Assembly: GCA_012862575.1 (NCBI GenBank)
Contig: BLSF01000059.1
Span: forward strand, 62,001 to 126,000
Source of the DNA: Parietichytrium sp. I65-24A
Taxonomy: Eukaryota > Sar > Bigyra > Thraustochytrida > Thraustochytriidae
DNA: 64,000 bases
Direction of reading: 5' to 3'
Shown: positions 23,211 through 31,184 of the stretch, in pieces
Layout: every line of letters begins with the position of its first letter
How positions within the stretch are numbered: position 1 is the first letter of the stretch
The notes under the pieces: generated by a model
The model's input: only the letters and a program-made list of their open reading frames with translations
Database searches by the model: none
Told to the model about the DNA's origin: nothing
Program-made: the position numbers and the translations under genes

Positions 23211-23344
23211 ACTTACTTGCCTTTTCAAGAGCCACGGTCGCAACTTGTATTTCTGGGGGGTTCTTACTACGTAATTACTGTTTACACTAGTATTTTTTAA
23301 AAATAGCTAACTACATATGCTCACCTGGAAACTAGGAACGACTA

Positions 23345-23459
23345 TGTCCGGTCAAAGAATTGGGGCTCACCGGAACTCATCCGAACTCCGAAGTTAAGCC
23401 CAATCTGGCCAGGTCAGTACTACCGTAGGGGACTAGGTGGGAAGCCCTGGTGCCGAACA
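23345..23459 (+). rRNA. 5S rRNA, copy 1
   Basis: About 115 nt. The conserved core is present: CACCGGAACTCATCCGAAC, TCCGAAGTTAAGC (internal control box A region), AGTACTACCG and GGTGGGAAGCCCTGG (box C and 3' region). The ends TGTCCGGTC and TGCCGAACA can pair as helix I with one internal mismatch. A T-run directly after the 3' end serves as Pol III terminator. The exact 5' end could be 1-3 nt different. Confidence 0.93.
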
Positions 23460-23495
23460 TTTTTTGCAATTTTTTTCTGTTCGTTTTTTTTTCTT

Positions 23496-23792
23496 NNNNN
23501 NNNNNNNNNNNNNNNNNNNNNNNNNNNNNNNNNNNNNNNNNNNNNNNNNNNNNNNNNNNNNNNNNNNNNNNNNNNNNNNNNNNNNNNNNNNNNNNNNNNN
23601 NNNNNNNNNNNNNNNNNNNNNNNNNNNNNNNNNNNNNNNNNNNNNNNNNNNNNNNNNNNNNNNNNNNNNNNNNNNNNNNNNNNNNNNNNNNNNNNNNNNN
23701 NNNNNNNNNNNNNNNNNNNNNNNNNNNNNNNNNNNNNNNNNNNNNNNNNNNNNNNNNNNNNNNNNNNNNNNNNNNNNNNNNNNNNNNNNNNN
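23496..23792. other. Assembly gap (297 N)
   Basis: Unknown sequence between two inverted 5S copies. The left edge sits in the T-rich 3' flank of copy 1 and the right edge in the matching flank of copy 2, so the gap is probably a collapsed or unresolved part of the inverted repeat. Confidence 0.99.
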
Positions 23793-23799
23793 CAAAAAA

Positions 23800-23914
23800 T
23801 GTTCGGCACCAGGGCTTCCCACCTAGTCCCCTACGGTAGTACTGACCTGGCCAGATTGGGCTTAACTTCGGAGTTCGGATGAGTTCCGGTGAGCCCCAAT
23901 TGTTTGACCGGACA
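23800..23914 (-). rRNA. 5S rRNA, copy 2
   Basis: Reverse orientation to copy 1 and identical over nearly all of the RNA (one difference near the 5' end, AAAC for AAAG). Its 5' flank to about 24043 mirrors that of copy 1, so the pair forms a large inverted repeat around the gap. Confidence 0.93.
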
Positions 23915-24249
23915 TAGTCGTTCCTAGTTTCCAGGTGAGCATATGTAGTTAGCTGTTTTCAAAAACTACTAGTGTAAACAGTATTTACGGAATAAGAACC
24001 CCTCAGAAATACAAGTTGCGACCGTGGCTCTTGAAAAGGCAAGTCAGTGTGCAGAATTCACAAGACAGGCGCAGGGCGCAGGTGCGCAACTCTCAAGCAC
24101 GAAGAAGGCCGCCGAAGGCAGGCTCGCTCATTGCTCATTGGCTGCGGAGGCAGGCGCAACTCTCAAGCGCACGAGGAAGACCGCCAGAAGCGTGCGCACT
24201 TCGGCTTGTGTCTAAGAAAAAAAAAAAACGAACGGAAAAATGCAAAAAA

Positions 24250-26174: not shown

Positions 26175-29100
26175 TTAGTTTACCGGCCTTTCGCCAAAAT
26201 ACTCATTAAAATCTACATGGAGCAGGAGGCTAGACGGACCGGAGAATGGGGAGATGGATAGCTTGGCATAGGATTGCACAGTTCTGACGAGAAAACTCTG
26301 AGTGGATTCAAAGTCCTTCCAAGCCGACTCGAGCTCGCTTGACGGTTGGGTTGCCTTTGCCTTGAGCTCCTTGGCGCTCTTTTCGAAGAATACAACAATT
26401 CGATTCAAGGCACGTTCGAAACATTTGTGGATGAGCGCTGAAGGGCGCGACGAGTCCAGAAAGCAGTGCACCCCAGATCGCTGCACGAAATCGCGCAAAC
26501 ATGTAGCAAAGTGCAATGGCGTTCCATGCGAGTTCTGGCTGCCAGGGCTCGCATCTGCTCCTAATAGTGAGTTGGACATTGTTGTCCACTCGTTGTGAAG
26601 CAGCTGCGTGAGCAAGTAGTTTTCAAACGTAAGCACTAGGTGTCGGATCTGATGCCAGCGAAGTGTTAACCAGGACGCAAGGGTTCGCGCGTTACGATTT
26701 ACCTTTAGCATCACCCACATCTTGTTGGTGAGTGCCACTGAAAACTTTATAGACAATAAAAACCGGTGCACTTTCTCTAGTTCGGCAACCGTCGCATCAC
26801 TCATGATGACGCGCAATGGCCAGCCAAAGGAAAGTTGGACCTTTAAAAATTCAAACCTCTCATAGTTTGTGAAGATGCTTTGCCCCTTGTAGGCTTTGCT
26901 TTTTGGGTCAAACGCTGCTGACAGGCCATATTTGAAGAACTCGGAGCTCTCTTTGGAGCCAGAGATTCCCATGCTAAGCACCTGAGTCTCAATCAAGCTT
27001 TGGATCGCTTTCCCACGAGCAACTGTGAGATCTTGCCTCTCCGAAAACGCGGAACAGAACCAATCAACAACTGAAGAAAACACTTCACCTTGGCTCATGA
27101 ATACGAACTGCTTGACCAATTGGAGATGGTCTGCAAGATTTGAGTGATCACGAATAACAATCGCCAAAGCGCTCTCCACTATAGCACACTGATTCAATAG
27201 CATTTCAGCCACGCCAAGCTCAAAGACCACATCCAGTGGCGCAACACTGCCTTGATCGTCGCAAGCCTGATTAGAGAGTTGGGTTTCGGCTGAGGAGTCG
27301 AACTCTTTCGAATTCATTCCTGGCCAACTTGGCTCTTTGGTACACTCGTTTATGAGGCTGCGACAGCGTTTGATCGCGGAGTCATCTGACTCCGCCTTCC
27401 CAGGGACAAACGTTCTACGAACCTGCTTGCTTTTGATTGGTTGGGGCCGGTCTTCATCCGGTGCCCGCTGCCGAGCCCACAACTCACCAATCGACGACTT
27501 TCCTCCCGGAACTTGCGAGACCTTGATCGATGAGCGCTCCTTACTTTTCAGCACCTCATTTCCCCAGCTTGCGTCCAGCGAGCTTGTACCACCAGGAGCT
27601 TGGGCAACTCGAACACTAGCCGCGGGGCTCTCCGAAAGCGAGTCTTCGTGCAAATGCTTCGCTACTATACTAGTACCACCGGGAGCTTGTGCCACTCGGA
27701 CTGAGGGCTTTTCAGGACATGTGACGGAATCTACATCAAGACATTTGCCGGCTTCGCTGTCTCCGTCGGGAGTGCATACATTTGTCGGTGAGGTTGTCGA
27801 TTCAACGATCGACTTATCACGCAAATGCTCTCCAGCGGTGCTGGACCCTCCTGGCGCCTGAGCCACTCGAATCGACGGCTTTCCAGCCACAGCATTTGAG
27901 TTCTTGTTTATATCCTCGCCGAGCAAACTCGAACCGCCAGGAGCATGAACAATGCGAAGTGATGGTTTTCCGACCCTTACTTCTGAACTCTCGTCCAGAT
28001 ACTCCCCGAGCGTACTTGAACCACCTGGTGCCTGTGCAACCCGGATCGATGGTTTCTCAATCTTTGTGTCTGGATCCCCGACCAAGGAGTCGCCTAATGT
28101 GCCTATCTGCTCCGCGCCAGGGGAACCGTTCGATTCATCTCTGGCAGAGTATATTTCAGAAAGCGAAGTTGCACCGTCATGAGCATTCAAGACTCGAATT
28201 GACGACCTCGCGCCTTCAACAGTCGTGTTTTCATTCAAATATTCGCCAATCGTACTAGAGCCTCCAGGTGCATGTGAAACGCGAATCGATGGTAATGGGG
28301 TCCAGCTTTCGTTGCTAGCGTCATTCGGGTGAGGGGAAACTTTGGACGTCGAGGCCGACTTACCCTCAGGTGCTAGAGTTTTTGGCCCTGCTTCGGTATC
28401 GAGCTCCTCAGGGGGGCGGTTTGCTTGCAGAGCATTCGTCAGCGAGCTGTTTTGTGAAGATGTGTCCGCATTTGTGTCTGCGGAGAGACTGGCCTCTCCG
28501 CCGGGCACAGCCAAAACTTTAATGGCAGGCTTTGGTCTCTCGACACCGGAATCTTCGCTCAAAATGTCTTGAACCGTGGATTTCCCTCCGGGATGTTGCA
28601 AAACAGCGACAGACGTCCTCTCCGCTGGAGGCATATCTCCACGTAATTCGTCCAATGCCTTTTGCAGTTCCCGTATGCTTGCGAGCTCTTGTTCGGACAA
28701 AGACCTGTCTGGCGCGGCATCCCTCTGCTGCCTCATGAATTCTTCAATGTCTTGAGTAAGCTTCTCTTCGGCGCGCTTGCGCTCACGTGTCGAAGCAGGG
28801 GAAGTAATCGATTGTCGGGCATCCATTGAGGATTTCTCTTCTGCTCGTTGCTTTACGATCGCTGCGGCCTTTTCCTTTCGGGCCTCCTCAGCGGCCACAC
28901 GAAGTTGATCGTACTCTCGCTTGTTCCTTTCAAAAACCTGCGCACGCTGCTGCTCCATTTCTGCCAACAATCGGGCCCGAAGAAGCTCCCCCTTTTCTTG
29001 CCCCAACCGTGCTTTTTCTTGTGCCAATCGAACACTTTGCTGCTTTTGCTCTTTGCGAACGGCAAACATTTGCGCCGTGTAAGATTGAATGCAACTCATC

Positions 29101-31184
29101 TTGGTGGCGTGGTCTTCAAGGATGAGCTTACGTACGTTGTTGACCTGTTTAATCTGCCTCAGAGCTTTTGGGAGACATGCATCGAACAAGTTTGGTGGGT
29201 GCTCCGTTACAGTGTTGAAAATAACGCTATCCTTGTCGACATCTTCCAGCACTCGCAGCATGCAGCCGCATATTGCAAACCGCTTCGCCAGATCCTCTGA
29301 TGTCATGCTGCGGATACTGGATTTGAAGAACCATGGCAGCGTAAACTGCGGAGTACGGTTGTCGCTTTCCAAAACTGGATCGCTAAGCATTGCGCGTAGC
29401 GTTTCTGTCCAAGAGTTGTTCTTCCATGACCCCATCCGGAAAAATTCACTCGCGGCAAAGCTTTGCGCATTCTGTGCCGTGAATAACCAGTTCCATAGTA
29501 ACCGCACGAGAAAACCAACACTTGCCTCCAGCAGTTGTCGTGGATGTGAAAGTGTAGCCAGACCCGCTTGTTTTGCACCTTGGTACAACGACTTGATGAG
29601 TCCAAAAGAGGTTTTGGCGGGCGAACGGAGGGCAAGGGCTGCGCATGTGGAAAAAAGCTTCCGTTTTAGCTTGAGCACCTCAGTGTGCAAAAGAAAAAAG
29701 CTTGGAGACGCTACCATCTCTTGACCAATGGCCATGACATTTTGCTGATACGACAGGATGAACTCGTTAAGAAACTCGCGAATGAGCTGTCCAATCTCAA
29801 GAGATGCAATTGACGAATCTGGGCCAGCTGCAAATGACAGTTCCAGATACGAGTTTGCGCAAACTTGTACATCGTCCAAGAGGCCTGAGAGTGCACGAGT
29901 GCTCAGATATAAAGGCCGATAACTCGCCACAAAAGACATTCTACCGTCTGCACCACGGCGAAAGAGTAATGTCTCGACACCTATGAGCGCAAGGAGGCAA
30001 TCCTTGAAAATTTGAGACCACGAAAGTGCCATAGAGGGATCAAAGTACTCGTGCTCGACCATTCGCGCCTCAAAGCGCTCCTCGCCTCTCTCCGAGCTGA
30101 GAAGCGCATGACTCGCAAACTGGATCGCCTTTTGCGCCTCGTCTGTGGGCTGTACCAAGACATAGCTATTTGGGATCTCTTCCTCCCATCCATAGATGGG
30201 CTTCTCTTCACTGAAAGAAGGTATCTTCTGCTTGGCGATTTGAACCCAGATGTCGGAGCTCGAGTCGCTGATCAAATCCACAATATACGCCTTTGAATCC
30301 GACGCGTCTTCTTTGATACGCATTTGTGTTTCGTGGTTTGTCTGATTCGAACCCTTGCGATGGCTATGAGTGGACGCAGTATCTATCAGCATCCCCATGG
30401 GGTCGGGCGCGAACGAGTCATAAGCTCGAGATACATCGGGCAAAGAAAGCTTTGAGTTCGCTCCCATCGACTGATTCCTTGGGTGCAAGACTGCTCCAAA
30501 CAGCGTGGCACTTTTTCCGGGTGCTCCGAACATAGAAGCAGCATCCCCAGCTTCCGGGTTTGCCGTCAACCTCTGCTTCAGCAACTTGGCAGCATTCAGC
30601 ATCGAATTCTCTTCTGCACCGAGCCAATCTCGTCTCCTGTTTTCCACATCCAGCATTTCAACGGGCCGGTTTCTCCCACTATGTATGTCAAAATGTGTCA
30701 CTACCGCTTCCCCGGCCAGCACTTCCCTCGCATCAAGTGGCACGTTCGCGCGGTACACAACTTGTTCTTGCGCCGCCTGGTTCCGCGTGCCATCTTGCAT
30801 CTTGCGCAGAACCCACCGGTTCTCCGCGATCGCAGCCCTCCCCGCGCGCCCGGTTCCGCCCGAGAACCCGGGGACCCGCGCCAACGCCAGCAGCAGCTGC
30901 AGAACCCCCGGGTTCCCGGTTCTCGCGCGGTCGGCCGTGATTCGCAGAGCATCTGCTTCGCGATGCCGTCCTTCCGCTCGCAGCAGCGCCTCTGCCACCG
31001 CCAGCACACCGGGTCCTGTACGAGAATCGCGAGGACGCCCGCTCCGCGCACCTGCCCCTGGTCCCCCTGGTCCGGTGGGATTGCGCACGAGGAGTACGGA
31101 GGCAAAGTAAAGGTCGATCAGCCGCGCGCTGACGTCATCCGGGAGCCCCGCGCACAGCTCGCGCACCCCTGCGCGGACATCCAT
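26175..31184 (-). CDS. TUBGCP6: Gamma-tubulin complex protein 6-like, with PGGxS repeats
   Basis: The protein has 1669 aa in one exon, starting MDVRAGVREL. The GRIP1 part lies at about residues 340-690 (WGWEEEIP-like YGWEEEIPNS, SWSQIFKDCLLALIGV, LLRLLWNWLF). A charged coiled coil spans about 690-840. An array of about eleven 30-residue units at about 855-1235 has the consensus S(I/V)RVAQAPGG(S/T)S(S/T)xGEYL. The GRIP2 part at about 1330-1640 (FELGVAEMLLNQCAIVESAL, LSFGWPLRVIMSDATV, WMLKVNRNARTLASWLTLRW, HLVLTFENYLL) binds gamma-tubulin in this family. Long length and a repeat-bearing insert between the two halves are typical of GCP6, part of the gamma-tubulin ring complex. The repeats resemble the PGGxS motif of SPIRAL1/Jupiter/HN1 microtubule proteins rather than the human GCP6 repeats. 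Confidence 0.92.
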   Translation of the reverse strand: MDVRAGVRELCAGLPDDVSARLIDLYFASVLLVRNPTGPGGPGAGARSGRPRDSRTGPGVLAVAEALLRAEGRHREADALRITADRARTGNPGVLQLLLALARVPGFSGGTGRAGRAAIAENRWVLRKMQDGTRNQAAQEQVVYRANVPLDAREVLAGEAVVTHFDIHSGRNRPVEMLDVENRRRDWLGAEENSMLNAAKLLKQRLTANPEAGDAASMFGAPGKSATLFGAVLHPRNQSMGANSKLSLPDVSRAYDSFAPDPMGMLIDTASTHSHRKGSNQTNHETQMRIKEDASDSKAYIVDLISDSSSDIWVQIAKQKIPSFSEEKPIYGWEEEIPNSYVLVQPTDEAQKAIQFASHALLSSERGEERFEARMVEHEYFDPSMALSWSQIFKDCLLALIGVETLLFRRGADGRMSFVASYRPLYLSTRALSGLLDDVQVCANSYLELSFAAGPDSSIASLEIGQLIREFLNEFILSYQQNVMAIGQEMVASPSFFLLHTEVLKLKRKLFSTCAALALRSPAKTSFGLIKSLYQGAKQAGLATLSHPRQLLEASVGFLVRLLWNWLFTAQNAQSFAASEFFRMGSWKNNSWTETLRAMLSDPVLESDNRTPQFTLPWFFKSSIRSMTSEDLAKRFAICGCMLRVLEDVDKDSVIFNTVTEHPPNLFDACLPKALRQIKQVNNVRKLILEDHATKMSCIQSYTAQMFAVRKEQKQQSVRLAQEKARLGQEKGELLRARLLAEMEQQRAQVFERNKREYDQLRVAAEEARKEKAAAIVKQRAEEKSSMDARQSITSPASTRERKRAEEKLTQDIEEFMRQQRDAAPDRSLSEQELASIRELQKALDELRGDMPPAERTSVAVLQHPGGKSTVQDILSEDSGVERPKPAIKVLAVPGGEASLSADTNADTSSQNSSLTNALQANRPPEELDTEAGPKTLAPEGKSASTSKVSPHPNDASNESWTPLPSIRVSHAPGGSSTIGEYLNENTTVEGARSSIRVLNAHDGATSLSEIYSARDESNGSPGAEQIGTLGDSLVGDPDTKIEKPSIRVAQAPGGSSTLGEYLDESSEVRVGKPSLRIVHAPGGSSLLGEDINKNSNAVAGKPSIRVAQAPGGSSTAGEHLRDKSIVESTTSPTNVCTPDGDSEAGKCLDVDSVTCPEKPSVRVAQAPGGTSIVAKHLHEDSLSESPAASVRVAQAPGGTSSLDASWGNEVLKSKERSSIKVSQVPGGKSSIGELWARQRAPDEDRPQPIKSKQVRRTFVPGKAESDDSAIKRCRSLINECTKEPSWPGMNSKEFDSSAETQLSNQACDDQGSVAPLDVVFELGVAEMLLNQCAIVESALAIVIRDHSNLADHLQLVKQFVFMSQGEVFSSVVDWFCSAFSERQDLTVARGKAIQSLIETQVLSMGISGSKESSEFFKYGLSAAFDPKSKAYKGQSIFTNYERFEFLKVQLSFGWPLRVIMSDATVAELEKVHRFLLSIKFSVALTNKMWVMLKVNRNARTLASWLTLRWHQIRHLVLTFENYLLTQLLHNEWTTMSNSLLGADASPGSQNSHGTPLHFATCLRDFVQRSGVHCFLDSSRPSALIHKCFERALNRIVVFFEKSAKELKAKATQPSSELESAWKDFESTQSFLVRTVQSYAKLSISPFSGPSSLLLHVDFNEYFGERPVN
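27480..28640 (-). repeat. Coding tandem array of PGGxS-type units in GCP6
   Basis: Eleven degenerate units of 27-35 residues, nine with an intact PGG. Examples are VLQHPGGKSTVQDIL, VSHAPGGSSTIGEYL, VAQAPGGTSSL and VSQVPGGKSSIGELW. Two units are decayed (LNAHDGATSLSEIY and the one with CTPDGDSEAG). Spacer residues between the units are acidic and variable. Confidence 0.9.

Follow-up and report, generated by a model that had tools for sequence, protein, structure and literature searches.

A GCP6 of Parietichytrium sp. I65-24A with a central array of SPIRAL1-like PGGxS motifs: a candidate multivalent tubulin-binding arm

Vertebrate GCP6 carries nine central repeats of 27 amino acids. A passage of a 2018 review gives the function of these repeats as unknown and suggests that they bind tether or ring components (PMC6281477). 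In the vertebrate ring, the N-terminus of GCP6 takes part in the lumenal bridge, as described in parts of two reports (PMC12932783, PMC8789826). SPIRAL1 is a known microtubule protein, according to a passage of a further paper (PMC5288973). The consensus reported in part of a study on legume SPR1-like proteins is GG(G/H)(Q/-)SSL(G/D/N/S/H)YLFG, and the C-terminal copy has PGGG (PMC9959322). In passages of a review, binding to a luminal pocket is predicted for the PPGGK/S motif of the JPT proteins, JPT2 is described as a lumen protein sensitive to taxanes, and tau and MAP2 are said to bind the outer lattice via P-G-G-G repeats (PMC13406575). The tail of CRMP2 binds the microtubule lattice. Deletion of the whole tail abolishes binding and a construct ending at residue 525, without the distal half of the tail, localises weakly, in passages of the report that are not specific to the PPGG motif (PMC5587665). 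Among the matches listed from the open-licence literature, in which subscription journals are mostly not covered, no report brought GCP6 together with SPIRAL1 or PGGG. In this study, we focused on a GCP6 gene in which these two subjects appear to meet.

The window analyzed here is a stretch of 64,000 nucleotides from contig BLSF01000059.1 of Parietichytrium sp. I65-24A, and the whole genome (42.5 Mb, 172 contigs) was searched along with it. The gene consists of a single open frame whose start codon, the first ATG of the frame, is an assumption (Table 1). The GRIP2 domain is firmly assigned and was also located by the scan of the genome (C59:88196-89137). A search of the PDB with the protein at E up to 0.1 returned three sequences, two of which are labelled GCP6. 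The third, 6tf9_SP1, is labelled 'gamma tubulin ring protein' and has the 27-aa repeat of GCP6. By label or by repeat, all three matches are thus GCP6, and the protein is closer to GCP6 than to GCP2-5. These results bear out the identification made in the sequence-only reading, which had also placed the repeats between the GRIP1 and GRIP2 halves. The GRIP2 side of that placement is secure. GRIP1 is only weakly seen: the GCP_N_terminal match scored 17.8 bits against a Pfam cut-off of 29.4 bits. The N-terminal half matched only V-ATPase subunit G in the PDB (E 2.7-2.8), and no match below E 0.2 was found against four GCP paralogues of the same genome. The AlphaFold2 model of residues 380-855 was mostly helical and of low confidence (mean pLDDT 50) and was set aside. 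Foldseek returned 520 matches to this model at E up to 10, none of them at 0.001, and no GCP was among the best 50 of the 520. Good scores within the long predicted helix were confined to about residues 710-779. The first ~130 residues (window 30795-31184), where the start is uncertain, appeared by eye to be G+C-rich and rich in Arg and Gly.

Table 1. Coordinates of the GCP6 gene, its domains and the units of its repeat array within the window.
Feature	Position	Strand	Remarks
GCP6 gene	26175..31184	-	single open frame, 1669 aa; Pfam GCP_C_terminal and PDB matches
GRIP1 (GCP_N_terminal), weak match, residues 394-582	29439..30005	-	Pfam E 0.0025, sub-threshold
Long predicted helix, residues 666-784, upstream of array	28833..29189	-	AlphaFold2, low confidence
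Repeat array, residues 856-1244	27453..28619	-	acidic spacers and basic cores
Unit 1, RTSVAVLQHPGGKSTV	28536..28619	-	3/5 flank positions
Unit 2, KPAIKVLAVPGGEASL	28449..28532	-	3/5 flank positions
Unit 3, LPSIRVSHAPGGSSTI	28212..28295	-	4/5 flank positions
Unit 4, RSSIRVLNAHDGATSL	28125..28208	-	without PGG (HDG), flanks kept, 5/5
Unit 5, KPSIRVAQAPGGSSTL	27972..28055	-	5/5 flank positions
Unit 6, KPSLRIVHAPGGSSLL	27885..27968	-	5/5 flank positions
Unit 7, KPSIRVAQAPGGSSTA	27798..27881	-	5/5 flank positions
Unit 8, TSPTNVCTPDGDSEAG	27711..27794	-	decayed register, 2/5 flank positions
Unit 9, KPSVRVAQAPGGTSIV	27627..27710	-	5/5 flank positions
Unit 10, AASVRVAQAPGGTSSL	27540..27623	-	4/5 flank positions
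Unit 11, RSSIKVSQVPGGKSSI	27453..27536	-	4/5 flank positions
GRIP2 (GCP_C_terminal), residues 1350-1663	26196..27137	-	Pfam E 1.4e-21

The array consists of 11 registers, nine with PGG, one with HDG and one decayed (TPDGDSEAG). Unit starts span residues 856 to 1217 and are 28-29 residues apart except for two gaps of 79 (889 to 968) and 51 residues (997 to 1048), inside which two further possible remnants of units were noticed by eye (APEGKSAS and SPGAEQIGTLGDS). The periodicity is not due to chance, since the best self-diagonal score was 288 and the maximum of 100 shuffles was 50. At the DNA level, Tandem Repeats Finder listed no repeat at the array. The eleven units proposed from the letters alone were therefore recovered as registers, but the core that had been given for them, RVxxAPGG(S/T)S, is exact in just five of the 11 (968, 1048, 1106, 1163 and 1192). 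In the ten units other than the decayed one, the cores are basic (+1 to +3) and the spacers acidic (-1 to -3); residues 856-1250 have a net charge of -14 over 395 residues. Ser and Thr account for 61 and 24 of 405 residues, respectively. The AlphaFold2 model of the array with GRIP2 (mean pLDDT 37) was set aside, and no weight was given to the short strands that it places on SIRV in several units (fragment positions 191-195, 220-225 and 249-254). The array is probably disordered. The galactokinase signature PF10509 matched the array below its cut-off of 23.1 bits (21.2 bits, E 2.2e-4), and this match was taken as chance. In one scan of viral contigs, no relative was confirmed.

This GCP6 resembles its vertebrate counterpart in GRIP2 and in the long central repeat insert ahead of it. 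The repeats themselves differ, as had been anticipated in the sequence-only reading. The vertebrate units are 27 residues long, are of the type GHVSDASIRVGENVSDVAPTQPRWNTH and have no PGG, and SIRV was the only 4-mer common to the array and an 81-aa stretch of vertebrate repeats in a comparison based on 4-mers alone. The array was accordingly rejected as a set of vertebrate-type 27-aa repeats. A two-unit query of the vertebrate repeat found five GCP6 chains, of which two showed ten matching stretches spaced 27 aa and three showed three or four.

SPIRAL1-type repeats are present in the same genome. The query was a sequence taken to be that of Arabidopsis SPR1, which agrees with the legume and willow consensus, as given in parts of two papers, except for the last residue of the C-terminal copy (PMC9959322, PMC6892981). 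Two genes matched it with E-values of at most 1.3e-5, and weaker matches fell at two other places (E 0.17 and 0.5). The first gene (L007:715-1668, plus strand, contig C49) encodes a protein of 317 aa with five SPIRAL1-type repeats of the type RVSANRFATGSNQNAGNVLTDRPTTRLHAPPGGHSSIFG; the other four are 82-95% identical to the first, and the spacing is 46-47 aa across the first four. Legume SPR1-like proteins, in contrast, carry a single conserved motif at either end. The second gene (L008:1495-2850, minus strand, contig C104) encodes a 3-dehydroquinate synthase (Pfam DHQ_synthase E 3.1e-41, DHQS_C E 4.9e-42), the last 40 residues of which form one complete SPIRAL1-type repeat, KVSSNAFATGSNQNAGNVLTDRPTTRVRAPPGGASSIVFG. 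This tail suggests that a shikimate-pathway enzyme may be tethered to microtubules, akin to the CRMPs with their PPGG tails.

The GCP6 units were compared with these repeats by means of a profile of ten GCP6 units, a profile of six SPIRAL1-type repeats of the genome and a joint profile of both. In hhalign, the two families aligned over 16 columns with a probability of 78.5 (P 1.7e-5), and none of 300 column shuffles with PGG fixed reached the real score. When PGGxS was fixed, the margin was smaller: the score was reached by six of 500 shuffles of all other SPIRAL1 columns, by one of 500 when the 16-column SPIRAL1 core alone was shuffled, and by one of 500 when the GCP6 columns were shuffled. 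Once PGGxS is granted, the likeness of the two profiles therefore appears moderate, that is, good but not overwhelming. A matrix made from the GCP6 units was also scanned over 2,709 open reading frames of the genome of at least 60 aa (324,263 residues, 46 sources), a set in which overlapping loci were counted as they are and to which the SPIRAL1 loci had come via SPR1-type queries. After GCP6 itself, the highest scores in this set were those of the dehydroquinate synthase tail (21.1) and of SPIRAL1-type repeats (17.6, 14.5 and 13.7), and the best window outside both families scored 11.3. A fifth SPIRAL1-type context scored 10.3, under four unrelated windows, and a sixth (HSNN) did not exceed 10.

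The residues around PGG were evaluated at five flank positions, [RK]x[ST]x[RK][VIL]xx[AP]PGG, with residue classes taken from seven non-GCP6 sequences. The nine GCP6 units with PGG fit three (two units), four (three units) or five (four units) of these positions and the HDG and decayed units fit five and two, respectively, while 75 other PGG contexts fit zero to three; these scores are to be read with the fact that the positions were chosen with both families already in view and that two of the seven class-setting sequences (JPT1 and Arabidopsis SPR1) are presumed rather than database sequences. The 75 contexts came from the six frames of the window and from the fetched loci, and the PGG at residue 39 of GCP6 was omitted.

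Plain sequence searches of the genome did not join the two families. The array and a three-unit query found GCP6 only, and queries with SPR1 and with SPIRAL1 repeats did not return GCP6. What this GCP6 has in common with SPIRAL1, as represented by the five-repeat protein of the same genome, is the core [RK]x[ST]x[RK][VIL]xx[AP]PGGxS. The ten aligned GCP6 units have neither the upstream half of the SPIRAL1 repeat (SANxFATGSNQNAGNVLTD; NxGNxxTDRP) nor its terminal FG. They also differ in being 29 aa apart, against 46-47 aa in the five-repeat protein, and in being embedded in a nucleator subunit of 1669 aa. Because of the shuffles with fixed PGGxS, the null results of the plain searches and the missing rest of the repeat, we regard the short motif as probably shared by the two and do not assign GCP6 to the SPIRAL1 family.

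The PGGxS likeness originally suggested from the letters extended to SPIRAL1, Jupiter and HN1 proteins alike. It stood in part for SPIRAL1, where the flanks in common with the genome's own repeats reach beyond PGG. Membership of the Jupiter/HN1 family was rejected, as the GCP6 protein had no Pfam JUPITER (PF17054) match at E up to 1, and neither the array nor the ten units matched JUPITER at E up to 10. A JUPITER family search of the genome gave no match, yet its controls likewise matched nowhere. The segment RVLRPPGGGS, which we take to be part of JPT1, fits all five flank classes, which JPT1 itself helped to set. The JPT1 sequence used is recognized by Pfam JUPITER at E 4.1e-8 and had three weak matches in the genome (E 0.012, 0.74 and 1.9). 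Against 177,635 PDB sequences, the SPIRAL1-type profile had four matches at E 1.1-1.8, all of them tails of CRMP2 (8dnm_A, 7u5k_A and 9c4e_A) or CRMP5 (4b90_A), with the segments RTTQRIVAPPGGRANI and RASARILAPPGGRSSG. The joint profile matched CRMP5 (E 0.47) and also an unrelated ubiquitin-fusion peptide (E 1), and the GCP6 profile had no match in the PDB at E up to 10. The motif lies at chain positions 553-568 of CRMP2 in the PDB match and is hence absent from the construct that ends at residue 525. Unlike the array, CRMP2 and CRMP5 have a single copy of the motif, at the end of a dihydropyrimidinase-type protein. These tail matches hint at one microtubule motif in plants, animals and this organism. 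As an array of units of about 30 residues with PGG, the GCP6 insert is also reminiscent of tau and MAP2. The tau repeats measure 31-32 aa, tau is basic and its PGGG stands in another context than in the GCP6 array. The array differs from tau-type lattice binders in being net acidic.

We favor, with a probability of roughly 0.55, the interpretation that the probably disordered arm of this GCP6 is a multivalent tubulin- or microtubule-binding module of the gamma-tubulin ring complex. The arm would comprise about 390 residues ahead of GRIP2 with nine to eleven copies of the motif, each of which most likely binds alpha/beta-tubulin weakly. As a multivalent tether, the array might gather tubulin at the ring or hold the young microtubule there, and template and lattice grip would be combined in one subunit. 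A unit of 29 residues could extend to about 9-10 nm, enough for the 8-nm step of the tubulin dimer. From this length and from the analogies with the CRMP2 tail, JPT2 and SPIRAL1 we infer the weak multivalent binding of tubulin or lattice; the side on which the arm would bind (lumen or outer wall) and its effect on nucleation are equally matters of inference. By analogy, the array could even enter the lumen of the growing microtubule with PGGxS in the taxane pocket, which would make GCP6 a built-in taxane-like stabilizer of the first tubulin layers. This is unlikely. It is based, among others, on the GCP6 N-terminus joining the vertebrate lumenal bridge in the account given in part of one report (PMC12932783), whereas the PGGG repeats of tau are placed on the outer lattice in a passage of another (PMC13406575).

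Other explanations of the array have to be considered. A less likely possibility is that the array is a scaffold, used for docking or regulated by phosphorylation, whose partner is not tubulin but, for example, an anchoring factor, a kinase or a ring subunit, and that its likeness to PGGxS proteins reflects convergence on a Pro-Gly turn. The suggestion that vertebrate GCP6 repeats bind tether or ring components, made in a passage of the review (PMC6281477), the richness of the array in Ser and Thr and the moderate likeness beyond PGGxS (six, one and one of 500 shuffles) would all fit such a scaffold. However, the flank positions fit classes set from other families, the nearest matches among the scanned reading frames are SPIRAL1-type repeats, and the vertebrate repeats share just SIRV with the array.

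It is rather improbable that the array is a neutral disordered spacer that arose by tandem duplication and has no specific partner. PGG has been lost in two of 11 registers, the two gaps may contain decayed remnants and the region was modelled with very low confidence, as would be expected of such a spacer. Yet the divergence between the ten units, computed without the decayed one, is uneven: pS is 0.73 in the cores and 0.77 in the spacers, while pN is 0.36 and 0.61, so that core pN is about 60% of spacer pN. Since synonymous change is near saturation and pN is lower in the core, the copies are old and the core has been held; the HDG unit, too, keeps all five flank positions. An arm that delivers the ring to a mother microtubule by binding to the latter, as a built-in stand-in for augmin-type recruitment, is conceivable because a multivalent lattice binder fused to a nucleator could act in this way, but we regard it as very unlikely. 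The genome has a HAUS6_N match above the cut-off (E 1.2e-14), and augmin is therefore probably not missing; for HAUS3 no clear match was found in the genome (best E 0.49). The tubulin-binding arm remains our preferred interpretation. If it is correct, nucleation and lattice grip would reside in one subunit instead of being provided by separate recruiters, and if relatives or other lineages achieve the same with different repeats at this place, tubulin gathering would be a general role of the insert. A recognizable tubulin-binding signature in the repeats of a GCP6 would also allow a direct test of what GCP6 repeats do.

The scan of the genome revealed at least four other GCP genes. In two of them (L001 and L002), both GCP domains are strong in Pfam. 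A third, L004, has GCP4 as by far its best PDB match (E about 1e-41 against 1e-14 for the rest). For the fourth (L003, contig C30), the first PDB matches were two chains with no label beyond gamma-tubulin complex component, followed by GCP5. A MOZART1 match was also found. Given the GCP4-like, GCP5-like, MOZART1 and HAUS6_N matches, a full ring complex is plausible in this organism. The GCP5-like protein has one PGGxS-like context, VPPGTLIPHPGGDSTL, inside its GRIP2 region, which scored negatively against the matrix of GCP6 units. Elsewhere in the window, at 23307-23958, both strands carry the translated stretch LTTYAHLETRNDYVRS...KPWCRTFF, each copy reading inward to a run of N, which suggests an inverted repeat around this run, as in a mobile element.
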